The notes beneath the pieces were generated by a model, which was not told the origin of the DNA, ran no database searches, and saw only the letters and a program-made list of their open reading frames with translations. Position numbers and translations under genes: made by a program. A stretch of 64,000 bases of DNA from a virus: positions 1-64,000 of IMG/VR virus record IMGVR_UViG_3300036845_000196; one strand, given 5' to 3'. Shown here in pieces: positions 15,739-62,421 of the stretch; position 1 is the stretch's first letter, and the number at the start of each line of letters is the position of its first letter.

Positions 15739-16446
15739 TTATCCATTCACCACGAGCGGCAGCATCGGCAGCGGCGTGGTGGTCATCATTGCACTGGTGA
15801 GTGCAGGCAGAAGCTGCGCCACATTATCGTTGTCCTTTGGCGTCTTTCGTTTGATGAATTTTTCAATCATCGCCCAGCCCCTGTCGGCATCGCCGTCGCC
15901 CAAGCGCACCAAGGTTTCCTGCGGCACGTAACGAGCGCCACGTGGCATCTTGTCTTTTTCAAACATTGCCGCCCATACAGCCGGGTTTGTCTGTTCATTG
16001 GACCACTTCGCGTTATAGACAAAGATCACGCCTGCCGGTGAGCCCAACTTGCGGCGATAGAGCCGTGTCTTTGCTTCAAGTTTTTCATTTGTGAGGATGC
16101 CGGTCACCAACGGCAGACCGAGCGCCTTGGCGCATTGTTGATTGAACGCAATGAGATCGTTGTGATGCGACGAATGACGGAACTGTGGCTTAACAAACAA
16201 CAACAGTTCTTCAAGGTGGTAGTGGTCATCGTACCAAATTGTTGTGATGAGAATCACCGTAGCGGCTTCGATGCCGTTCGGCCCGTCAATCACACCGATG
16301 ATGCCGCCGCGTTTCTCGAACGCGCGATGCAGCATTTCGGTCACCATTGCGTCGTTCATTGCGCCAAGGCCGTTCTCGGCGTGCAATTCGTGGCACAGCG
16401 CGAGCAACTGCGGTTCGTCGGCTTTGGTGGCGAGGCGAGGGGTCAT
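15739..16446 (-). CDS. GNAT-type acetyltransferase-like virion-region protein (235 aa)
   Basis: Begins MTPRLATKADEPQLLALCHE, a typical GNAT start, and continues with a beta strand IIGVIDG and the HLEELLLFVKPQFRHSSH segment that resembles the strand-4 and acetyl-CoA loop region of phage GNAT proteins. The last 40 residues are hydrophobic/Pro-rich. Similar GNATs are frequently placed next to internal virion proteins in podoviruses; substrate unknown. It overlaps the upstream gene by ATGA. Confidence 0.65.
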   Translation of the reverse strand: MTPRLATKADEPQLLALCHELHAENGLGAMNDAMVTEMLHRAFEKRGGIIGVIDGPNGIEAATVILITTIWYDDHYHLEELLLFVKPQFRHSSHHNDLIAFNQQCAKALGLPLVTGILTNEKLEAKTRLYRRKLGSPAGVIFVYNAKWSNEQTNPAVWAAMFEKDKMPRGARYVPQETLVRLGDGDADRGWAMIEKFIKRKTPKDNDNVAQLLPALTSAMMTTTPLPMLPLVVNG

Positions 16447-46051: not shown

Positions 46052-47911
46052 TTATACGTTGTATAGGGCTTTCGGACGCGGCCTGTGCGTAATCCGCTCC
46101 CGCTCCGCCACCTTGATTTCTTCATCGGTCGGCGCCAGCCCCACCATCCGCAAGTGCCGCAGCGCCAATGTGGCCGAATCCGTCAGGTCCATGTATTTGC
46201 CGCGAGGGAAGGATTCCATTTCTTCCATGCAGATTTCGGCCCAATCCTTGATCGGCGACCAAACCTTCCCCTGCGAGAACATCGGTTGCACCGACAGTGC
46301 GCGTGCGTACTTATCGCCCTTCACGGGCGACAACTGCACTCCCCAAGGCTCATCGGCGTACAACCGCTGAATCTCCTGTGCCACCGCGATGCCGGTTTTC
46401 TCCGACTCGATGATCAGAAGATCAACGAGATGATAGCGGCACGAGAATGCGATCCACTCGACCAAGCCCCACTCGCCGCCGCAGCGATTGCGCCACATCA
46501 AATCGCGTTGCCGCCTTTTGTTGATCGTGTCCCCCATCTGCGGAATTTCCATCGCCTGGCGCGGCATCAGCACACCATGCAGTTTCAATCGCTTGCGCCA
46601 CGCATCGATCAACATGATCGCATTGTTGTCGGGATTGTCGGGGTGACGGAACGTGCCCCAGATCGTAAAGCCGGACGGACAGTTTTCTTCTTTCTCGGTC
46701 GCGGCTGCGTCCAAAGACGCCAGCACGTAGTCGAACTGCGGCCAATGGCCGTCTTCGGGCGACCAGATGCGCCATTGATCGCGACGGAATAGGCCGCCGC
46801 CGCGGGGGGAAGGGCGCTGCTGGTATTGGCCGGCCCAACCGTACTCGCCGAGTTCACGCTGCAGCCGCGCCATCTGGTCGTTGGGGAATCGTTCAGGCCA
46901 CGCCGGCACGCCTTGATTGGGCAAGTCGCCGTTCTTTTCGTAGACCACGAAGCCCTCGTCATCGAGTTCGAGGCGCGGATCGATCCATCCGATTTCGTTC
47001 AGGTACGGTTCATCGGTTTCCTCGTTGACAATGCGTTCGGGTTCAAACTCCCACGGGATCATGCAGTGGCAATAATCAAATTCAGGACCAAGCGCGACGC
47101 CGCTCACGTCGGACTCTTGGACTCGCTGCATGATGATCACGAGCGCGCCGGTTTCCAGATTGTTAAAGCGTGACGAGATTGACTCACGAAACCACCGCAC
47201 GGTCTCATCGCGCACCCGTTCCGATTCCGCTTCTTGCACAGAATGGGGATCATCGATGATGATGCGGTCGCCGCGCTCGCCAGTCGCGACGCCGCCAACA
47301 GACGACGCGAGCTTCCAGCCGGTGCGCGTGTTCATCACCTTGATCGTGGTTTTGTTGCGTAGTTGGACTTTACCTTCGGCATCAACCTCGCTGACTTGTT
47401 CGGTCCCTTCGATGCGCTTTGTGCGCAGCGGACCATATGATCGCTGATAATCTTCGGATGTAATCAGCGTGCGAAATCTATCGTTATCGCGTTCTGTAAG
47501 CGACGCCGAATATGAAAACGCCACGTAACGGTAGTGGGTTTTCTTCATCGGCCCCCACTCCCACGCGGGCCAGAAACAATCAACGATAATGCTTTTGGCA
47601 AACCCTGGCGGGACATTAATTAAAAGCCGCGTAATCTCACCGAACGTCACCGCTTCGAGATGCTCGCACATCGCCCACAACGGCCACCCATCAACGAACG
47701 GCGTCTCCGGCTCCAGCACATGCCAAAAATACCGCACGAACGCGATCAGCCCACCCTCGCGCCGACAGCCCACGACGTAATGCTCGAACCGTTCGCCGTC
47801 GCGCTCGTACCAGCCTCGTTGAGACTGCAAATCCTTGGCGACACGACGCAGATATTCTTCCGACAGCGCGCGGAATTTTTTGAGTTTTGTCTGGTCGAGC
47901 GGGGCGTTCAT
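46052..47911 (-). CDS. terL: terminase large subunit (619 aa)
   Basis: The ATG at 47911 overlaps the previous stop (ATGA). Walker A-type INVPPGFAKSIIVDCFW and Walker B DRIIIDDPHS identify the packaging ATPase, with coupling motif VIIMQRVQESD; the C-terminal nuclease has the YVLASLDAAATEKEE acidic motif and a late acidic cluster (KYMDLTDSATLAL). Length is typical. It translocates DNA into the prohead and cuts concatemers at the portal. Neighbours are the small subunit upstream and portal downstream. Confidence 0.9.
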   Translation of the reverse strand: MNAPLDQTKLKKFRALSEEYLRRVAKDLQSQRGWYERDGERFEHYVVGCRREGGLIAFVRYFWHVLEPETPFVDGWPLWAMCEHLEAVTFGEITRLLINVPPGFAKSIIVDCFWPAWEWGPMKKTHYRYVAFSYSASLTERDNDRFRTLITSEDYQRSYGPLRTKRIEGTEQVSEVDAEGKVQLRNKTTIKVMNTRTGWKLASSVGGVATGERGDRIIIDDPHSVQEAESERVRDETVRWFRESISSRFNNLETGALVIIMQRVQESDVSGVALGPEFDYCHCMIPWEFEPERIVNEETDEPYLNEIGWIDPRLELDDEGFVVYEKNGDLPNQGVPAWPERFPNDQMARLQRELGEYGWAGQYQQRPSPRGGGLFRRDQWRIWSPEDGHWPQFDYVLASLDAAATEKEENCPSGFTIWGTFRHPDNPDNNAIMLIDAWRKRLKLHGVLMPRQAMEIPQMGDTINKRRQRDLMWRNRCGGEWGLVEWIAFSCRYHLVDLLIIESEKTGIAVAQEIQRLYADEPWGVQLSPVKGDKYARALSVQPMFSQGKVWSPIKDWAEICMEEMESFPRGKYMDLTDSATLALRHLRMVGLAPTDEEIKVAERERITHRPRPKALYNV

Positions 47912-48108
47912 TCGGATGTATGCTTGATCGCCTTCATCAGTTCGTCGATGACCCACCGAGGCACTGGGACCATCTCCATAAGTGTGTTGTGGTCGCTCGA
48001 CGCCGTGCCAGGGCGAGCACCGGCCAAGATGCGCTTTATCTCGTTTGTCGCCGCAAGAAGCGTTGGCTTTGCTCTTTGCCTAAATGTTTGGTCGAATGGG
48101 GTGTTCAT
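47908..48108 (-). CDS. small protein upstream of the large terminase (66 aa)
   Basis: Begins MNTPFDQTFRQRAKPTLLAA; the start MNTPFDQT resembles the MNAPLDQT start of the large terminase immediately downstream, perhaps a partial duplication. It overlaps the terminase ATG by 4 bases. Upstream it is bounded by a family-A cassette. No family recognised. Confidence 0.5.
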   Translation of the reverse strand: MNTPFDQTFRQRAKPTLLAATNEIKRILAGARPGTASSDHNTLMEMVPVPRWVIDELMKAIKHTSE

Positions 48109-48481: not shown

Positions 48482-49174
48482 CTAAGACTGCGAATCCCCA
48501 AACCGATACGACAAATCGATCTCGATCCCCAACTCCCGCGCCTGGTTGGCAAGCTGCGAGATAATCTCCTTGTCGCTCAACCGCTCGAATCCCGCTTCAC
48601 CATCCCGCGTCGGCGCCCCGATTCCCAATAGCGCCCGCAATTCCTTCGACGCCGCCAGCGCCGAATACGTCCGCATGGTCAGCCGGCCCTTTTCATCGAA
48701 CGTGATCGCCTCGATGCACTTGCGGATGTCGTCGGGAATATCGCTCAACAGTCGCGGTCGCTGGACCTTCTTTTTCAAAGGCTGCCCGTCTTCACCCAAA
48801 ATCGGCTTGCCGTTCTTGTCGGCCTTTTCCACCTCGATGGTCTCGTACATCAACCCCGGATCGGCATCGTGAATGAGCCACAGCCGTTCCTCGATGCGCT
48901 TGCGCTTTTCCGCGAGCATTTCATCGTCGAGTTGCCGCAGGTAGCGGATGCGCTTTTGCACCTCAGGAAGCGATTCCCATTTGGTGCCGGAACCATTCTC
49001 AGGGCGACCGCCGGCGCGACGCACGGCTTCGCGCTGCGAACAGCCCAAGGCGCGCTCGAAGGCGTACTTTTCGTGCAAATCGCTCCGCAGCGGCGTCGCC
49101 GGATCGTGAGGCAACGCTATGAGCGACCTACACTTTTCCGCTGTGGCCGATTCCGAATGATTCCCGTTCGCCAT
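48482..49174 (-). CDS. terS: terminase small subunit (230 aa)
   Basis: Immediately precedes the large terminase region in the transcript. Residues ~30-60 (KYAFERALGCSQREAVRRAG) look like the N-terminal HTH DNA-binding part of small terminases, followed by a coiled coil (LRQLDDEMLAEKRKRIEERL). The body has an insert with KADKNGKPILGEDGQPLKKK and a helical end (KEIISQLANQARELGIEID). Recognises the packaging site and stimulates TerL; assignment from position and domain layout. Confidence 0.75.
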   Translation of the reverse strand: MANGNHSESATAEKCRSLIALPHDPATPLRSDLHEKYAFERALGCSQREAVRRAGGRPENGSGTKWESLPEVQKRIRYLRQLDDEMLAEKRKRIEERLWLIHDADPGLMYETIEVEKADKNGKPILGEDGQPLKKKVQRPRLLSDIPDDIRKCIEAITFDEKGRLTMRTYSALAASKELRALLGIGAPTRDGEAGFERLSDKEIISQLANQARELGIEIDLSYRFGDSQS

Positions 49175-49284: not shown

Positions 49285-49470
49285 TCAGTCGTCAAGTTCG
49301 CCCATCAGGCGCTCGCTAAGGCGCTTGTCGGCTTCGGTGGGCTGGACGTTGTAATGCCCGCGCGGAGCCGACTGGCGGCGGATTACAGCCCGCTGCAGCA
49401 CCTTCCAACGCCGATCGTCGTCCGCGTTGCGCTCGGCTTCGGTGTAGGGCTGGGCGGAGGCGAATTTCAT
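49285..49470 (-). CDS. small hypothetical protein (61 aa)
   Basis: ATG at 49470 overlaps the previous stop (ATGA). Product begins MKFASAQPYTEAERNADDDR and is charged and helical with GHYNVQPTEADKRLSERLMG. Last gene before the presumed terminator. No family recognised. Confidence 0.55.
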   Translation of the reverse strand: MKFASAQPYTEAERNADDDRRWKVLQRAVIRRQSAPRGHYNVQPTEADKRLSERLMGELDD

Positions 49471-50153
49471 GCTCGCTTGATCAGTTGGGGGCCGAACGGT
49501 AGTGGCAGTCCCTTTTTATCGACTGTCGCGGTCGCCATCACCCGCTGATCTAGCACTCGCACTGCCATAGCGCCGCGCAAGTTCTCATCTTGAACCGCCT
49601 TGAGCATATCGGCAAGCCGCTCCGGGTCGTCAAGTACACCATCCCACCTGGCGATTTGCTTCTGCGCCTGCATGGCCCTCATTCCAGTCGCACTGGCCAA
49701 CCAGCGGGCACCTTGATCGCCAAGCCAAAACGCAGCCGCTTGTCTCGGAGTCAGAGTAATAGAAGATTCTTTTACACTTACGTTATTACCACGGCTAAGG
49801 TCTTGATTCGAGGCGTGCGATTTCAATGACTTATCGCCGCGCAAATCCCGGAGTCGCGCTGTCCGAGTCATTCGCTGGTGCGCAAATTCAAGTTGTGCCG
49901 TGATGTGGGGGTGGAAGATATGGTCGCCGTCAAATCGGAGCTTTTCCGTAAGAACCAAGCGCACGCGCCTCCACTGACGCGCGTTCATTTTGGCGACTTT
50001 CGCCAGTTTAGAGGGGTCTTTGGTCAACCTGCCGCCGTGACGCCACAGCGCCCACTTGATTCGGGTGTAAGCGCCCAGAGCCTCGGGGGTCATTTCGTCG
50101 GCGTCGAGCAGAGCCTGATCCACATCCTCGGAACGAAAGCGGGGCTTTTTCAT
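49467..50153 (-). CDS. DUF1376-type (YdaU-like) replication-associated protein (228 aa)
   Basis: ATG at 50153 overlaps the previous stop by ATGA. The first ~100 residues (RFRSEDVDQALLDADEMTPE, LGAYTRIKWALWRHGGRL) match the DUF1376/YdaU N-terminal domain found in early phage genes and replication-initiator neighbourhoods. The remainder has a helical region (ATGMRAMQAQKQIARWDGVL). The upstream gene has a similar first domain but an HNH in place of the second, see 50150-50719. Confidence 0.65.
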   Translation of the reverse strand: MKKPRFRSEDVDQALLDADEMTPEALGAYTRIKWALWRHGGRLTKDPSKLAKVAKMNARQWRRVRLVLTEKLRFDGDHIFHPHITAQLEFAHQRMTRTARLRDLRGDKSLKSHASNQDLSRGNNVSVKESSITLTPRQAAAFWLGDQGARWLASATGMRAMQAQKQIARWDGVLDDPERLADMLKAVQDENLRGAMAVRVLDQRVMATATVDKKGLPLPFGPQLIKRA

Positions 50154-50719
50154 GATACAAAACCCAGAGCGCTCATATACTCGCTGACCCACCCCGGCCT
50201 ACTCGCGTTCCTATAATCAGAGTCGGTCGTCATCTTTGATTTATTGCAGCGATCACAAAGCGGTTGCAAATTGGCGACACAATCACACCCGCCCCGCGCC
50301 AACGGCACCACATGGTCTTTGGTCGTCTCGCGGGTCCCACAACGCGCACACCCATCAAACAAAGACACCATGACATTCCATTCGAAAGGCGTGTGTGTAC
50401 CCAATTCTTGGCCCTTCAATAAACGCTCATAGCGCCGCGCGCCGGGTGTCCCGTCGTCTTTGACTGTTACGTTGCCCAGCGACGAGCATGTTGCGCGGCC
50501 GTCGATTACCTCAAAGAAACGCTTGAGCGAATCGTAAATGCTGGGGAAGTGGTCGCCAGCACGCGAGTGACGCGCAAACTCATTGGCCGGAAGCCAACCG
50601 CCGTTCAGTGTCATAGCCCATTTGAGGCGGCAAAACGCACCCAGTTCCTCGTTGGTGAGGTCATCGCTATCGGCCATTGCTGATTCGACGTGTTCCGAGC
50701 GGTAGTGCAGTTTAGTCAT
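50150..50719 (-). CDS. HNH endonuclease fused to a DUF1376-like domain (189 aa)
   Basis: Residues 1-80 (MTKLHYRSEHVESAMADSDD, LGAFCRLKWAMTLNGGWLPA) are homologous to the start of the next gene. Residues ~120-170 carry a complete HNH nuclease: CARCGTRETTKDHVVPLARG, then NLQPLCDRCNKSKMTTD, with the His of DHV, paired CxxC and the Asn. It looks as if an HNH gene replaced or was inserted into one copy of a duplicated DUF1376 gene. Function: DNA cleavage, perhaps homing or recombination. Confidence 0.75.
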   Translation of the reverse strand: MTKLHYRSEHVESAMADSDDLTNEELGAFCRLKWAMTLNGGWLPANEFARHSRAGDHFPSIYDSLKRFFEVIDGRATCSSLGNVTVKDDGTPGARRYERLLKGQELGTHTPFEWNVMVSLFDGCARCGTRETTKDHVVPLARGGCDCVANLQPLCDRCNKSKMTTDSDYRNASRPGWVSEYMSALGFVS

Positions 50720-52533: not shown

Positions 52534-52794
52534 TCACAAACCCGTGAATGACCCTTCCCGAATCACAGCCGGTGCATGACCCAACACCTTGATTTCCTTA
52601 CATTCCAACGGCCGCAGCGTCTCAATTGCCAGCGAAAGACTGGCCGCCCGCTCCAAGATTCGCTGCATCTGTGCCTCGCGCGCCCGGACGTGTCGTTTGT
52701 CGCCCTCATGGCGTATAGCCGCGCATTGGCAGGTTTCCAGCTTGCGCATGGCGAGGCGTAATTGGTGGGTGAGGTCGGTGATGATCTTGTCCAT
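52534..52794 (-). CDS. hypothetical coiled-coil protein (86 aa)
   Basis: Begins MDKIITDLTHQLRLAMRKLE and is helical and basic (KRHVRAREAQMQRILERAAS). A Cys pair (TCQC) and the CKE near the end are present. No family recognised. Located between two small early leftward genes; ribosome site weak. Confidence 0.5.
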   Translation of the reverse strand: MDKIITDLTHQLRLAMRKLETCQCAAIRHEGDKRHVRAREAQMQRILERAASLSLAIETLRPLECKEIKVLGHAPAVIREGSFTGL

Positions 52795-52815: not shown

Positions 52816-53049
52816 TCATTTGAGGGTCTTCGCACCCGAATCACCGGGAAGGTCATCCGATCGCTGCGGGCCGCGCGGGAAGCTAAAGGATGTCAGCGCC
52901 TCGACGGTCGGATCGGTGTCCGGGCCGTGCCAGCCGCCGGCGTCGAAGCCGTGGTAGAAGCCTGACATGGGGACGGAAGCAAATATGGCCCGCGCGATGT
53001 AGCGGGCGACGACGAGGGCGCAGACGATGCCGATGAGCGAGTAAGTCAT
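52816..53049 (-). CDS. small membrane protein (77 aa)
   Basis: ATG at 53049 overlaps the upstream stop by ATGA. The N-terminus MTYSLIGIVCALVVARYIAR is one transmembrane helix; the rest is soluble and Gly/Pro-rich. A longer frame to 53136 starts inside the neighbour and is rejected. Unknown role in the early leftward operon. Confidence 0.5.
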   Translation of the reverse strand: MTYSLIGIVCALVVARYIARAIFASVPMSGFYHGFDAGGWHGPDTDPTVEALTSFSFPRGPQRSDDLPGDSGAKTLK

Positions 53050-53318
53050 TGTCGCGGTTCCCCCAGCAACGCGCGGTCGCGCTGGTTCGGCCGCACGGTG
53101 GGATGGGGAAAATATTTGGTTTTGGCGCCATTCCATATTCCAGGCTTGCCTTCCTCGGGGTGTAGAACAGCGTTACGCCGCGCCGCGCGATAAGTGCTGC
53201 GAGCGCGAGGCGGCTTCGTCCGGCGCTTTAGGGATGGCTGCGGTTCTCGGATACCGGCGCGCTTGCGCATCACTCGCGCGATAGCCTCATCGTCGAGGTG
53301 TCTTTCAAGTCGTCCCAT
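53046..53318 (-). CDS. basic hypothetical protein (90 aa)
   Basis: Strong GGAGG 6 bases before the ATG at 53318 decides the start; an upstream start at 53357 (MFHVKH) reads the parS-like palindrome. Product begins MGRLERHLDDEAIARVMRKR and is Arg/Lys-rich (RRTKPPRARSTYRAARRNAV). Probably nucleic-acid binding. Overlaps the next gene by ATGA. Confidence 0.55.
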   Translation of the reverse strand: MGRLERHLDDEAIARVMRKRAGIREPQPSLKRRTKPPRARSTYRAARRNAVLHPEEGKPGIWNGAKTKYFPHPTVRPNQRDRALLGEPRQ

Positions 53319-53805
53319 GGGTTGCCTCCATTTTGGGTGATGTTTCACGTGAAACATGGGCCCCCGCGCGCATTTGAGTGGCAGGCGTGTTCAAAAGTTT
53401 GAAATAACCAAAAGGACTTAGGCCGACAAACTGACATCCGCGCAGCACCACGCCGATAAGCGCAACGTCGCCGCGCTCCAGATGCCTGATTGTACCAGGA
53501 AACACCCCAAGCGCCTTCGCAGCCTGCTTCTCATTATGGCCCATAAGGTAGCGCCGCAGTCTAAAGGCCAGCGAAAACACGCCAAAATCGAAATCCGACG
53601 GTTCCGGGATAGGGTGAAGCAGCTCCGGGGTCGGGTCAAACCGGATGGCCGCGCAGATGCGCAGGAAGGCCACAGCACCGACCGGACGCGCCGCTATGGC
53701 GTTGGCCATCTGGCGGGGCGTGACGCCGGCTACGCAGGCCCAGTGTGCTACGTCGCCGATGGGATCGAGGGCGTGGGCTAAGCTGTCGCGGGGGGAGAGG
53801 GTCAT
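53305..53805 (-). CDS. helix-turn-helix regulator (166 aa)
   Basis: Residues ~88-125 form an XRE/Cro-type helix-turn-helix: MGHNEKQAAKALGVFPGTIR then HLERGDVALIGVVLR. The N-terminal ~80 residues have a Trp/Ala-rich helical region (VTPRQMANAIAARPVGAVAF), itself reminiscent of a second HTH. The parS-like site lies inside its last 15 codons (VSRETS). It sits next to the Cro-like gene, so it is a candidate repressor or lysogeny regulator. Start at 53805, overlapping its upstream neighbour by ATGA. Confidence 0.65.
   Translation of the reverse strand: MTLSPRDSLAHALDPIGDVAHWACVAGVTPRQMANAIAARPVGAVAFLRICAAIRFDPTPELLHPIPEPSDFDFGVFSLAFRLRRYLMGHNEKQAAKALGVFPGTIRHLERGDVALIGVVLRGCQFVGLSPFGYFKLLNTPATQMRAGAHVSRETSPKMEATHGTT
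53341..53356. promoter_or_regulatory. perfect parS-like centromere site
   Basis: TGTTTCACGTGAAACA is a perfect 16-bp palindrome and matches the conserved chromosomal parS consensus (TGTTNCACGTGAAACA) bound by ParB in most bacteria. It lies at the end of the HTH regulator gene. No ParA or ParB gene is in the window. Confidence 0.85.
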
Positions 53806-54131
53806 TCGGCAACCTCCGTTTCCGTGAGGCGTCCCGCGATATAATCAACGTAATGGCGACCAAACCACTCGCCGGCGAGAACCCAGTGTTTATAGCCGGG
53901 GCCGAGGCGACGTATATCAAGGCCATAAAAATCTCGCAGCGCAGCAATCCGGCCGCCGTCATCGCGAGACCCAGTCAACCTAGATGCCGCAAGGTCAACC
54001 GGAGAACCTTTTCGAGCGTAGAAAAAATCATACATTGAACGCAACTTGGTGCCCTGCCGCGGAATAGGGTGGCGGGCAGCGTTTCGACCCATTCTGTCTG
54101 CCTTGGCTTCGGCTGCGCTTTCGGTTTTCAT
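53802..54131 (-). CDS. hypothetical basic protein (109 aa)
   Basis: ATG at 54131 with GGAGG 7 bases upstream; the frame to 54236 is not used. Begins MKTESAAEAKADRMGRNAAR. The second half (LRDFYGLDIRRLGPGYKHWV) is a compact alpha/beta piece. No family recognised. ATGA overlaps join it to the Cro-like gene and the HTH regulator. Confidence 0.5.
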   Translation of the reverse strand: MKTESAAEAKADRMGRNAARHPIPRQGTKLRSMYDFFYARKGSPVDLAASRLTGSRDDGGRIAALRDFYGLDIRRLGPGYKHWVLAGEWFGRHYVDYIAGRLTETEVAE

Positions 54132-54340
54132 TCCGCCGCCTCCCGCGCCGGATATACGTCCGGCCGCAAAAGGTGTCGCGAAACCCCCGTAATGCGCTCG
54201 ACTTGGAGCACCCGCAGCGGGGGCACGCGGTCCCACTGCATGATCGCCTCGCCGCTGATCTTGAGCCTGCGCCCAAGCGCGGTAAAGCCGCCAGCGGCCT
54301 CGACGGCGCGTTTTAGAGCTTCTTTTGGGGTTTCTGCCAT
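54128..54340 (-). CDS. Cro/YdaS-like transcriptional regulator (70 aa)
   Basis: ATG at 54340 with AGGA 8 bases upstream. Sequence EALKRAVEAAGGFTALGRRL, KISGEAIMQWDRVPPLRVLQ, VERITGVSRHLLRPDVYPAR is the classic YdaS/Cro small regulator: helix 2, the IxxWxxVP recognition helix and the EIxTGxxRxxLRPDxYP end. It is first gene of the leftward early operon and lies next to the operator region 54341-54491, so it probably represses one or both divergent promoters. Confidence 0.8.
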   Translation of the reverse strand: MAETPKEALKRAVEAAGGFTALGRRLKISGEAIMQWDRVPPLRVLQVERITGVSRHLLRPDVYPAREAAE

Positions 54341-54491
54341 ATTACATCCTAAGCACAAGTTAGGACAGGCTACAAGTTCCTAAGCTATACTTAAACCGCA
54401 ACCCTGCCATGCACTCCTAAAGCTAAGTTTTCCTTTGCTTTCCGGCTAAGGTTCGCTTAGTGTCTGATTATCGAATTCAGGGAGACAGCAG
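54341..54491. promoter_or_regulatory. divergent operator/promoter region with TCCTAA(A)GC repeats
   Basis: Between the Cro-like gene (left) and the first rightward gene. TCCTAAGC occurs at 54347-54354 and 54379-54386, TCCTAAAGC at 54416-54424, and reverse-type GCTTAG/TTAGGA copies at 54361-54366 and near 54457. Repeated sites in a divergent region next to a Cro-like gene fit an immunity operator array. No gene lies within. Confidence 0.6.
54363..54392 (+). promoter_or_regulatory. rightward early promoter candidate
   Basis: AGGACA (54363-54368), an 18-bp spacer and TATACT (54387-54392). The spacer contains one TCCTAAGC operator copy, so a bound repressor would block it. Confidence 0.5.
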
Positions 54492-54650
54492 ATGACCAAG
54501 CAAGACAAAATTAATTCACTCTTGGCGTGGGCGCTTTGTGGGTGCCAGATTTCCGAGAGGAACCGTACTCTTTTGTACGCGCAGTTCTCAGCCATGGCGG
54601 AGGACGAAATCGACCGCAGACTTGCGATGCAGGCGCGCCGTCGCGCTTGA
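54492..54650 (+). CDS. small hypothetical protein, first rightward gene (52 aa)
   Basis: ATG at 54492 with GGAGACAGCAG upstream. Begins MTKQDKINSLLAWALCGCQI and is helical with a Cys pair. The TGA is the first bases of a B1 element (54646). It is the first gene behind the early promoter, so it may be a regulator, but no motif supports this. Confidence 0.6.
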   Translation: MTKQDKINSLLAWALCGCQISERNRTLLYAQFSAMAEDEIDRRLAMQARRRA

Positions 54651-54681
54651 CCGCACCGTAACCACCAACCCCTCGTGAACC
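54646..54681 (+). repeat. family-B boundary element (B1 type)
   Basis: CTTGACCGCACCGTAACCAC then CCTCGTGAACC. It carries the stop of the previous gene and ends ~25 bp before the next ATG. Confidence 0.8.
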
Positions 54682-54706
54682 AAAACCTTCCCTTAGGAGC
54701 CTCACA

Positions 54707-55207: not shown

Positions 55208-55459
55208 ATGACAATCCGCCGCGAAGGAAAACGTCCGCCGGTTATTTCATGTGACGGCTGCGGCGTCGTGGCAGACAAAACAAAGTTGGAGGGCTACGCC
55301 GTATTCAACTATGCCGCCCGATGGGACGAAGCCAAAGCGGCCGGATGGACCGCGGCGAGAAAACCGGAAGGCAAGGACTGGAATCATATCTGCCCGGACT
55401 GCTCATCACGAGCCCCTATGGCCGTAAAGCCCAAGCAGGACAATCGAGAGCCAAGGTAG
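55208..55459 (+). CDS. cassette gene: small Cys-cluster protein (83 aa)
   Basis: The coding region begins MTIRREGKRPPVISCDGCGV, with CDGC and a second pair (HICPDCSSR) forming a zinc-ribbon-like site. It resembles a small family I know from rhizobial phages (CDGCG...). Residues 70-83 (APMAVKPKQDNREPR) are encoded by the right repeat. It is the only gene within an inverted-repeat element of 337 bp. Confidence 0.6.
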   Translation: MTIRREGKRPPVISCDGCGVVADKTKLEGYAVFNYAARWDEAKAAGWTAARKPEGKDWNHICPDCSSRAPMAVKPKQDNREPR

Positions 55460-55469
55460 CCAAGCTACC
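55414..55469 (-). repeat. family-A boundary repeat, right copy of cassette 4
   Basis: About 56 bp; on the minus strand GGTAGCTTGGCTACCTTGG to TACGGCCATAG. Outer blocks conserved, centre diverged (GCCCAAGCAGGACAATCG). Ends ~15 bp before the next gene start. Confidence 0.75.
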
Positions 55470-55485
55470 GAATAAGGAGCGTAAC

Positions 55486-56364
55486 ATGCCAGCTACCCGA
55501 CACGGTTCAATCGGCTCGATGGTCGATGAGATTGTGGACCGCACCAACCATTCTCTGTTGGCGCAAGAACACGCCCGCCGCGTGGCCGACAAGTACATCC
55601 CGGCCGTGAACCGCGACGTGACGCGCAACGACAACGCGCCGCCAAGCGGCTTCGCCATCGCACAGGCCCAGGACACCACCACCGAGGTTTCAGCGTTCCT
55701 GAAAGAGACGCCCGCCGTGACCAGCCCCGCCGAGTGCAAGCAAGGCGACGCCTGGATTGAGCGCGTGCGAATTAACCTGCAATCAATGGAAGATGAGCGG
55801 AAGCCTCGTGTTGAGCCGCTGAACGCCCAACTCGCTGCGATCAACGAGCCCTACCGCCTGGTGCGCCAGCCGTTGGAGAAAATCTTCAACGAACTAAAGC
55901 GCCGCGTGACCGTGTTCAAGAACAAGATCGAGGCCGAGCGCGAAGCCGAAGCCGCGCGGGTGCGGCACGCCGCCGAGGAAGCCGCCCGCATCGCCGCCGA
56001 AGCTGCTGCTGCCGCCGATGATGCCGTGGCCTGCGCGGACGTTGGCGAGTGCACCGACGCGGGCGCCGCGATCTTCGAGGCCCACCAGGCCGAGCGCGAA
56101 GCCGGCAAGCTCGACCGCATGGCGTCGCGCGCCGAGAATTCCGTGTCCTATCGCAACGCCTCAATCGCTGGCGGCAAGGCGATGTCGATGCGTACCGTGA
56201 CGGTCATCAATATCGCCGATCCCGTCGCCGCCGTAAAGGCACTGTGCAGCAGCGGCGTGCCGGAGAAACTTGCGACCGCCATTCGCCAGTTGTCGGTCGC
56301 CTTTGAGGAAGCCTATGGCGTGCTGCCGGACGGCGTGACCAAAACCACAGAACGGAGAATGTAG
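55486..56364 (+). CDS. conserved phage early protein with Ala/Glu-rich coiled coil (292 aa)
   Basis: ATG at 55486 behind AAGGAGCGTAAC; the open frame extends far upstream through the cassette. Residues ~75-240 form a long coiled coil (SMEDERKPRVEPLNAQLAAI, RHAAEEAARIAAEAAAAADD) and the C-terminus is alpha/beta (GGKAMSMRTVTVINIADPVA). I recognise this pattern from an early protein common in rhizobial phages, often beside recombination genes; its biochemical role is unknown. Confidence 0.65.
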   Translation: MPATRHGSIGSMVDEIVDRTNHSLLAQEHARRVADKYIPAVNRDVTRNDNAPPSGFAIAQAQDTTTEVSAFLKETPAVTSPAECKQGDAWIERVRINLQSMEDERKPRVEPLNAQLAAINEPYRLVRQPLEKIFNELKRRVTVFKNKIEAEREAEAARVRHAAEEAARIAAEAAAAADDAVACADVGECTDAGAAIFEAHQAEREAGKLDRMASRAENSVSYRNASIAGGKAMSMRTVTVINIADPVAAVKALCSSGVPEKLATAIRQLSVAFEEAYGVLPDGVTKTTERRM

Positions 56365-60137: not shown

Positions 60138-60332
60138 ATGACGCCGGACGATGTCCGAACCATGCTGCGGCGCGCCTGTCGAGAGGCAGGCGCCGCCGTG
60201 TCCTGGGCTAAGGCCCACAAACTATCGCCGGCCTATGTCAGTGACGTTCTAAATGGTCGCCGCGATCCTGGGCCGGCAATATGCGACGCGCTCGGCATTG
60301 AGGCCGAGATGACGTATCGGAAATCAAAATGA
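60138..60332 (+). CDS. small XRE-type HTH regulator (64 aa)
   Basis: ATG at 60138. Contains MLRRACREAGAAVSWAKAHK, then LSPAYVSDVLNGRRDPGPAI, a clear XRE helix-turn-helix. It overlaps the integrase start by ATGA, an arrangement typical of excisionase or directionality-type or repressor-type neighbours of integrases. Role inferred from position. Confidence 0.7.
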   Translation: MTPDDVRTMLRRACREAGAAVSWAKAHKLSPAYVSDVLNGRRDPGPAICDALGIEAEMTYRKSK

Positions 60333-61336
60333 CCCTCTCCGACCTCATAGCCGCCTACCGGAGCGACCCGGATTCGTCCTACCGCAAGCTTCGCTTCCGG
60401 TCGCGCCAGCACATGGATGGTCTCTGCGGCAGGATTGACGCCGACTACGGCACTGTCGAGATCGCCGACATTCGAGGGCGCCAGCTTCGCCGCTGGCACG
60501 AAGATTGGATTGTGGCCGTCAAGGCGAAGCGCCCGACCGACCCGCACGCGGGCATCACCATGGCGCACGGCCTTATGGGAATGCTGCGGACGCTCGTAGG
60601 CTTCGGCTTCACAATCCTCGAAAACGAGGACTGCGGCAAAGTCTCGATGCTACTGCATGGCCTCAAGTTTGAAATGGCCAAGCCGCGCACTGTCGTTCTG
60701 AGCGTTGGCCAAGTGATCGCCGTTCGCCGCATGGCACACGCAATGGGGCGTCACTCTGTCGCCTTGGCGCAGGCCCTCCAATTTGAGGGAACTCTACGGC
60801 AAAAGGACATTATCGGCGAGTTTGTTCCAGTCACTGAGCCGGGCCGCAACTATCTGGTCACCAAAGACGGATGGAAATGGCTTCGTGGCATCCGCTGGGA
60901 AGAAATCGACACCGAGCTTGTGCTTCGCCATGTCACGTCGAAGCGCCAGAAGGAAATCGAGATAGACCTGAAACTCGCGCCGATGGTCCTTGAGGAATTG
61001 CAGGACAAGTTCGGCTTGATGTCGGAACTGCCGCGACGCGGCCCCGTCATCATTTCCGAGCACAGCGGGCTTCCCTACACCGCGCCATCTTTCCGCTATC
61101 TCTGGCGCACGATCGCTCGCGCCGCTGGTATCCCCGATGACGTGCGCAATATGGACACGCGCGCCGGCGCGATCACCGAGGCGACGGATGCTGGCGCGCC
61201 GCTTGAGCTTGTGCGCCATGCGGCAACGCACAGCGATGTCTCCACGACGGGGCGCTATTCGCGTGGTGCGCCGGCCAAGACTGCGGAAGTCATGAGAATG
61301 CGCGTTGCGGCGCGGCAGCAGCAAGAGGTGGCGTGA
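60329..61336 (+). CDS. int: tyrosine recombinase / phage integrase (335 aa)
   Basis: N-terminal core-binding domain (residues ~1-125) and C-terminal catalytic domain. Visible catalytic residues: Arg in LQFEGTLRQKD, Lys/Arg segment in SKRQKEIEIDL, Arg in MDTRAGAITEA, His in RHAATHSDVSTT and Tyr in GRYSRG. The HxxR box reads M-D-T-R, lacking its usual His, as I recall from other rhizobial phage integrases. It would catalyse integration and excision; attachment site not seen. Partners: the small XRE gene just upstream. Confidence 0.8.
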   Translation: MTLSDLIAAYRSDPDSSYRKLRFRSRQHMDGLCGRIDADYGTVEIADIRGRQLRRWHEDWIVAVKAKRPTDPHAGITMAHGLMGMLRTLVGFGFTILENEDCGKVSMLLHGLKFEMAKPRTVVLSVGQVIAVRRMAHAMGRHSVALAQALQFEGTLRQKDIIGEFVPVTEPGRNYLVTKDGWKWLRGIRWEEIDTELVLRHVTSKRQKEIEIDLKLAPMVLEELQDKFGLMSELPRRGPVIISEHSGLPYTAPSFRYLWRTIARAAGIPDDVRNMDTRAGAITEATDAGAPLELVRHAATHSDVSTTGRYSRGAPAKTAEVMRMRVAARQQQEVA

Positions 61337-61538: not shown

Positions 61539-61694
61539 ATGGAAAAGATCATTACCAGCTTCATCTACCCGCCGATCCCAATCCGGCAGTTCGACTGGTG
61601 CGCGCACTACGACAATTACGAGCCTGGATGCCCAATGGGCCACGGGGCGACCGAGCAAGAGGCCATCGAGGATTTAAAGAGCCAAGATGAGTAG
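61539..61694 (+). CDS. small hypothetical protein (51 aa)
   Basis: ATG at 61539 with ACGGAAA upstream. Begins MEKIITSFIYPPIPIRQFDW and ends HGATEQEAIEDLKSQDE, a C-terminal pattern I have seen in several tiny early phage proteins (HGxTxEEAIxDL). The stop overlaps the next gene start by 8 bases. Confidence 0.5.
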   Translation: MEKIITSFIYPPIPIRQFDWCAHYDNYEPGCPMGHGATEQEAIEDLKSQDE

Positions 61695-62421
61695 CCGGCG
61701 CACCATAGTTTGGTTTTCCTGTGGGGCGGCGTCCGCCGTAGCAGCCAAGCTATGCCCAGAGGCGCAGCCGGTCTATTGCGAGACTGGCGCAGAGCATCCT
61801 GACAATGCCCGCTTTCTAGCCGACTGCGAGCGATGGTTGGGGCGTGCCGTAGAGCGCATCGCATCGGACAAATACGCCGACACTTGGGCGGTGTGGGAAA
61901 AGACCCGCTATCTCGCCGGCATTGACGGCGCCCGCTGCACCATAGAGCTAAAGGTCAAGCCCCGGCTGGCCTTCCAGCGCCCCGACGATATTCATGTGTT
62001 CGGCTACACGGCTGACGGTCCCGATTGCGACCGCGCCGACCGTCTCCGCGCTGCATACCCCGAATTGACCATCAAGACGCCGCTGGTTGAGCGCGGCGTG
62101 ACTAAGGCCGCCTGTATCGACATGGTGCGCCGGGCTGGCATAGAGCCGCCGCCGCTCTACGCAATGGGCTTCCAGAACAATAACTGCCTACCCTGCGTCA
62201 AGGCGACCAGCCCCGCCTATTGGGCGCTGGTGCGCAAATGTTTCCCCGACAAGTTCGAGCGCATGGCCAAGCTGTCACGCTCACTCGATGTGAGGCTATG
62301 TCGCCTCGGCGGCGAGCGGTCCTTTATTGACGAGATACCGGCCGACTATCCGACCACAAATCCGATCCAGCCCTCATGCGATTTTCTCTGCCACATAGCC
62401 GAGACGGAGTTTGCAACATGA
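61687..62421 (+). CDS. PP-loop ATP-pyrophosphatase, PAPS-reductase-like (244 aa)
   Basis: The N-terminus TIVWFSCGAASAVAAKLCPE is an SxGxxSxV-type PP-loop of the PAPS reductase/DndC-like superfamily, followed by VYCETGAEHPDNARFLADCE. Cys residues (ARCTIELK, NCLPCVKAT, LCHIAE) may hold a metal. Such genes occur in many phages, sometimes in DNA modification settings; the substrate is unknown. ATGA overlap with the following Cys-rich gene. Confidence 0.7.
   Translation: MSSRRTIVWFSCGAASAVAAKLCPEAQPVYCETGAEHPDNARFLADCERWLGRAVERIASDKYADTWAVWEKTRYLAGIDGARCTIELKVKPRLAFQRPDDIHVFGYTADGPDCDRADRLRAAYPELTIKTPLVERGVTKAACIDMVRRAGIEPPPLYAMGFQNNNCLPCVKATSPAYWALVRKCFPDKFERMAKLSRSLDVRLCRLGGERSFIDEIPADYPTTNPIQPSCDFLCHIAETEFAT

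Follow-up and report, generated by a model that had tools for sequence, protein, structure and literature searches.

Chromosomal-type parS sites recur in tailed phages and are candidate loading sites for host ParB

Introduction

Work on ParABS has so far dealt with chromosomes and plasmids that themselves carry the genes for this machine. ParB is loaded onto DNA at parS, closes with CTP and then slides along (PMC12704722), and the parS consensus of chromosomal systems is the palindrome TGTTTCACGTGAAACA (as cited in PMC10197239). In Pseudomonas aeruginosa, a relocated parS sustains segregation only if it lies within ~650 kb around oriC (PMC5098823). Centromere sites also occur on the DNA of phage-plasmids, such as P1 and the extrachromosomal mycobacteriophage prophages, which encode their own ParB (and ParA; PMC7157519). 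A segregation system may, moreover, be borrowed: SGI1 integrative mobilizable elements hijack the ParABS of IncC plasmids, with sites that are bound by IncC ParB and that make the element more stable and the helper less so (PMC10954446). A ParB-family clamp operating near an HTH regulator is known from plasmid RK2, which encodes KorB together with its own operators (KorB–KorA; PMC11790492).

Here, we describe a parS site in a tailed phage known from an IMG/VR virus record (IMGVR_UViG_3300036845_000196; 65,847 bp in full), the first 64 kb of which constitute the stretch of DNA analysed (the window). The site is identical to the 16-bp palindrome of chromosomes; unlike chromosomal parS, it resides on a phage genome, away from a chromosomal oriC and without parAB. 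As in phage-plasmids, a centromere site sits on phage DNA; in contrast to them, neither ParA nor ParB was found in the window phage. SGI1 comes closest as a precedent, being likewise a mobile element that carries parS mimics of another replicon without the matching ParAB, so the borrowing of another replicon's ParB is in itself already known. Yet, SGI1 is a conjugative element read by a plasmid ParB, whereas the chromosomal consensus is here found on phages, including at least one that is described as lytic. With respect to RK2, the comparison provides a model for a regulatory role, except that these phages lack a KorB-like protein of their own. In the openly accessible literature, we found no report of phages, whether lytic or not, that carry a host-type parS but no ParB. 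Phages with parS alone would mean that viruses, possibly including abundant ocean phages, use the host segregation clamp and, if true, would offer a testable handle on the placing or regulation of phage genomes in the cell.

Results and discussion

A perfect parS lies in an early regulator gene

The site, TGTTTCACGTGAAACA, occupies positions 53341–53356 (palindromic; no strand), matches the chromosomal-type consensus at 16/16 positions and is the sole match at three or fewer mismatches within the 64 kb, as compared to a mean of 0.23 such matches in dinucleotide shuffles. By hand estimate, between ~6e-6 and 1.5e-5 exact copies of the 16-mer are expected in 64 kb, based on composition or on uniform base frequencies. 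The site falls at the 3' end of an HTH-type regulator gene (53305–53805, minus strand; 166 aa), where it is read as V-S-R-E-T within a poorly conserved C-terminal tail. An earlier note on this DNA had described a perfect 16-bp parS at the end of an HTH regulator gene, both of which we confirm, and had put a chance occurrence at about 1 in 70,000 windows, to which our estimate comes close. The HTH protein itself gave weak matches (PF13560, E = 0.001, below the cut-off; phrog_2328 repressor, E = 0.0045), and its AlphaFold model (mean pLDDT 49.9; residues 130–166 below 50) was too poor for a fold search.

The window phage encodes a terminase, portal, methyltransferase, endolysin, exonuclease and tyrosine integrase. 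The HTH gene is third in a leftward early operon that is led by a Cro/YdaS-like regulator (54128–54358, minus strand; PF15943, 1.6e-12; PF14549, 9e-9) starting ~1.0 kb from parS. Replication genes follow, among them one for a primosomal-type protein (49467–50192, minus strand; phrog_3992, 1.1e-7), and the terminase genes come last: the small subunit (48482–49174, minus strand; phrog_51, 1.7e-4; homologues in relatives) and the large subunit, TerL (46052–47956, minus strand; phrog_38, 1.2e-70), which starts 5.4 kb downstream of parS. Judging from the ORF layout, the leftward and rightward genes presumably share a divergent control region (54359–54706, no strand) at ~1.0–1.35 kb from parS; the HTH-parS gene is located near this region, outside its bounds. 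In the rightward early operon, an exonuclease gene (55321–56364, plus strand; phrog_10477, 9e-21) is kept together with the HTH-parS gene in 4/4 relatives.

The tyrosine integrase (60329–61336, plus strand; PF00589, 1.9e-8) has homologues in two relatives (43% in G001, 42% in G002) and is 45% identical to that of a Bradyrhizobium phage record, which starts with a partial tRNA-Asp. As a weak hint, the integrase points to a host among the Alphaproteobacteria; two rhizobial phages with related integrases contained no parS, and no prophages of the window phage family were found in bacterial genomes. A phosphoadenosine phosphosulfate reductase-like gene adjoins the integrase gene (61687–62421; phrog_424, 8e-40).

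Three local explanations for the site were set aside. First, an overlapping 103-aa ORF from the ORF list (MFHVKH..., 53046–53357, minus strand) has its ATG within parS; it returned neither relatives nor matches in Pfam or PHROG and is unlikely to be a gene; with homologues not found, it was rejected as the cause of the site. Second, we think it unlikely that parS is attP, because the integrase gene lies 7 kb away. Third, the cumulative GC-skew minimum of the window (52,685) falls 0.7 kb from parS; it tracks the switch of gene direction, detrended minima fall elsewhere and relatives disagree, and a parallel to oriC was dropped.

The DNA of the site is conserved beyond the needs of the protein

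A profile search returned HTH-gene homologues from four further phages, all distinct, at 47–53% protein identity, labelled G001 (L122/L152), G002 (L123/L155, also contig L124), G020 (L153) and G021 (L154). Three of them (L153, L154 and L155; 47–51% identity) carry a perfect parS at the same place, leaving the site invariant in 4/5 homologues with the window counted. In the fourth, from G001, parS has two mismatches, both within one half-site, so the site can be dispensable.

Across the window gene and the three homologues with an intact site, the longest invariant run of DNA is 17 nt and corresponds to parS, followed by a run of 8 nt. All five VSRET codons are identical in the four genes, as opposed to 16 of the 61 other degenerate columns with an identical residue. 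The codon preceding VSRET varies (CAT, AAT, CGT), as does its residue, but the T is retained, and the linker ahead of parS differs in both length and sequence. The VSRET codons are rare in the window phage, with a combined probability of 1.3e-4 under phage codon usage. At the level of gene comparison, these data show that selection acts on the parS DNA itself and not on the protein. The earlier note had held that strict retention of every one of the 16 bases, over and above what the protein sequence demands, would speak for function, and three of the four other homologues behave in this way.

In the same three relatives, the HTH protein runs on past parS, whereas the window version stops 11 residues after VSRET. 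The additional C-terminal domain resembles a separate window gene (52534–52794), and parS there lies in a linker between the two parts of a fused protein.

G020 and G021 share the HTH–exonuclease–primosomal early module with the window phage, and no homologue of the window TerL was found in either; parS therefore travels with the early module. In the contigs L122 and L123, the TerL proteins are nearly identical, the HTH genes are strongly different and the L122 parS is degraded, pointing to exchange of early modules between phages.

Most carriers lack a recognisable ParB

Neither ParB_N and HTH_ParB (PF02195, PF17762) nor the ParA-type AAA_31 domain (PF13614) had a match across the 65,847-bp record; the control genomes were matched. 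The earlier note's observation that no phage ParA or ParB is encoded nearby is thus borne out for the whole record. With neither a parB nor a parA linked to the site, a self-encoded ParABS module is absent, and what is left is an orphan parS mimic without a cognate ParB of its own, as in SGI1-like hijackers. Nor does the record resemble a phage-plasmid, given a tyrosine integrase, no ParAB and replication genes that are only partly annotated. The three domains were likewise missing from the relatives tested and ParB_N from 22 further records, and 39 of the 44 parS contigs of at least 20 kb (among the matches listed) lacked it. A selected parS without its own ParA or ParB makes host ParB the natural reader. 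We consider it probable, on these comparative grounds, that the site is a conserved orphan loading site for the host's chromosomal ParB that is exploited during infection.

parS recurs upstream of terL in distant phages

In IMG/VR, at least 120 contigs contain the exact 16-mer, versus one for the reversed palindrome of the same composition. Around 33 of the 120 matches listed fall with the window phage into one broad terminase lineage, with sites mostly upstream of terL and often at most 150 bp away; in marine relatives, the distance is often 18–150 bp. For 15 marine loci in which parS lies close to terL, picked for having it, mean pairwise identity was 99% in the site and 33% in the 20 + 20 nt flanks, an independent second instance of a conserved site amid diverged DNA. 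The GGGGNCCCC motif seen beside marine sites does not occur in the window.

As these sets had been picked by parS, sampling by TerL was added. In a TerL-chosen sample of one type, 6/80 loci had parS at no more than one mismatch, all upstream of terL, and none of 29 shuffled palindromes reached this threshold. In a closer TerL clade, 14 of the 39 loci with enough sequence carried parS at most 200 bp upstream of terL (up to two mismatches; reversed control, 0). Mapped onto a TerL tree, the parS label needs at least 11 changes and is present in only 15/93 relatives, figures to be read with the caveats that upstream sequence is often incomplete, making absence uncertain where it is short, and that long branches weaken parts of the tree. 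A distant relative (L141; TerL ~40% identity) has a perfect parS 5.5 kb upstream of terL, in an apparently noncoding stretch that is non-homologous to that of the window. These genome comparisons show that distant phages carry parS repeatedly and that it mostly lies upstream of terL.

A site as short as 16 bp might in principle reflect chance or a fragment of host DNA, but no result of the analysis spoke for this. The probability of this account is close to nil: only ~1e-5 copies are expected per window, and the site is invariant among homologues at ~50% protein identity. A chance origin was rejected by the reversed-palindrome control, the conservation of the site within the HTH gene, the TerL-chosen sample of 80 loci and the marine flank comparison, and host contamination at 53341–53356 was rejected because four other phages have the HTH gene. 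A further account, namely that a phage protein unrelated to ParB reads the palindrome, as an operator or otherwise, and that the likeness to parS is a coincidence, draws on the frequency of palindromes among phage operators and on the location of the site in or near regulators. We regard it as scarcely likely, as the exact bacterial consensus recurs in unrelated genomic contexts, a shared DNA-binding gene beside the site was not found and variants in these phages are those of parS, such as TGTTCCACGTGAAACA in the closer clade, itself a known parS variant. Phage variants matching those of the host itself (e.g. GTTTCACGTGGAAC in Streptomyces phages) would favour host ParB as the reader.

A cultured lytic phage carries the site

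Pelagibacter phage HTVC027P contains CGTTTCACGTGAAACA at 16412–16427, with one mismatch and an intact 14-bp core, between gp31 and gp32 in the terS–terL stretch, and has no ParB_N. HTVC027P is described as obligately lytic (PMC12753301), which speaks for a use of the site outside lysogeny. Together with Ca. Pelagibacter HTCC1062, it forms a cultured pair for testing.

This bears on vertical segregation, i.e. stabilisation of an extrachromosomal prophage by host ParABS. SGI1, stabilised by a plasmid ParABS via orphan parS-like sites (PMC10954446), provides the parallel, and extrachromosomal maintenance is possible for G020 and G021, in which no tyrosine or serine recombinase was detected. We nevertheless deem vertical segregation highly unlikely. 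An integrase is encoded by the window phage and by two relatives, the lytic HTVC027P has parS, the window ORFs scanned contained no recognisable plasmid replicon gene, and the ~650 kb limit in P. aeruginosa implies that an extra parS, once integrated, could be costly. Of the interpretation originally put forward in the earlier note, the selected parS without its own ParA/ParB stands, and the segregation of an episomal prophage as its reason is disfavoured by the window integrase and the site in HTVC027P; its alternative, silencing or the loading of host ParB near the regulatory region, may hold.

What host ParB might do on phage DNA

If host ParB is indeed the reader, ParB-CTP would bind the phage parS during infection, close as a clamp and slide onto adjoining phage DNA. 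Phage genomes would thereby gain a host ParB complex open to host ParA and SMC. The benefit would most likely lie in the infectious cycle or in establishment, where phage genomes would be placed within the cell or kept apart, rather than in segregating a plasmid prophage vertically. If loading of host ParB is granted, the role we favour, at slightly less than even likelihood, is the positioning or condensation of phage genomes by host ParA/SMC, because one site suffices for it and because it suits lytic and temperate phages alike. Regulation of phage transcription by the ParB clamp is a tentative second and comes close behind, and nothing in the analysis separates the two. Titration of ParB away from the chromosome would be a rather improbable outcome of loading, and other roles (DNA entry, packaging, anti-defence) more improbable again.

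Taken as the explanation of the site in its own right, regulation would have host ParB at parS either block nearby promoters as a sliding clamp or be locked at them, akin to a KorB–KorA-like long-range repressor with a borrowed clamp. Its targets would be, in the window phage, the divergent early promoters and, in marine phages, the terL/late promoter, with ParB being diluted as phage copies rise. KorB can travel as far as 1.5 kb along DNA, and an HTH protein locks it at promoters (PMC11790492). A regulatory clamp fits the location of the phage sites: the window parS is embedded in an HTH regulator gene at ~1.0–1.35 kb from the divergent control region, and marine relatives often place theirs 18–150 bp ahead of terL. 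However, the position varies, with ~1.6–3 kb to the homologue of the divergent gene in relatives. Moreover, chromosomal ParBs are usually weak silencers. We hold this explanation to be unlikely.

Several short marine contigs have three to five perfect parS clustered in ~0.7–0.9 kb on the upstream side of terL (L016, 2657–3444; L043, 10535–11462; L052, 240–961). Such multiple sites would suit a decoy, whereby many replicating parS-bearing genomes pull ParB off the chromosome, upsetting segregation or division in the host; at high copy number even one site per genome would be enough, which fits lytic phages. Most carriers have a single site, though, and a decoy strikes us as improbable. Returning to loading of host ParB, its broadest form holds that host-type parS was gained again and again, and then retained, by a wide tailed-phage lineage that includes lytic SAR11 pelagiphages, in most cases at a place upstream of the terminase gene. 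Host ParB clamps would thereby be put on phage DNA during infection, amounting to hijacking of the host centromere in the lytic cycle, either to position genomes or to provide a regulatory switch sensitive to copy number. We judge the case for this generalisation, drawn from genome comparison, to be evenly poised.

Three minor observations concern the database contigs. An 11.7-kb contig (L070) has perfect parS copies at 132 and 11579, i.e. at opposite ends and with inverted flanks, representing either terminal inverted repeats or an assembly palindrome. G052 (contig L086; 116,662 bp) contains 24 parS-like sites between 91.7 and 110.7 kb, mostly of the actinobacterial type TGTTTCACGTGGAACA; it may well be host-derived, perhaps a host chromosome near the origin that was classed as virus. 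Finally, in the marine clade a G-run/C-run palindrome, AGGG(G)NCCCC, recurs right before the terL start with or without parS (L244, L245, L246, L252, L258, L268 and others), and is possibly a promoter, operator or packaging element.
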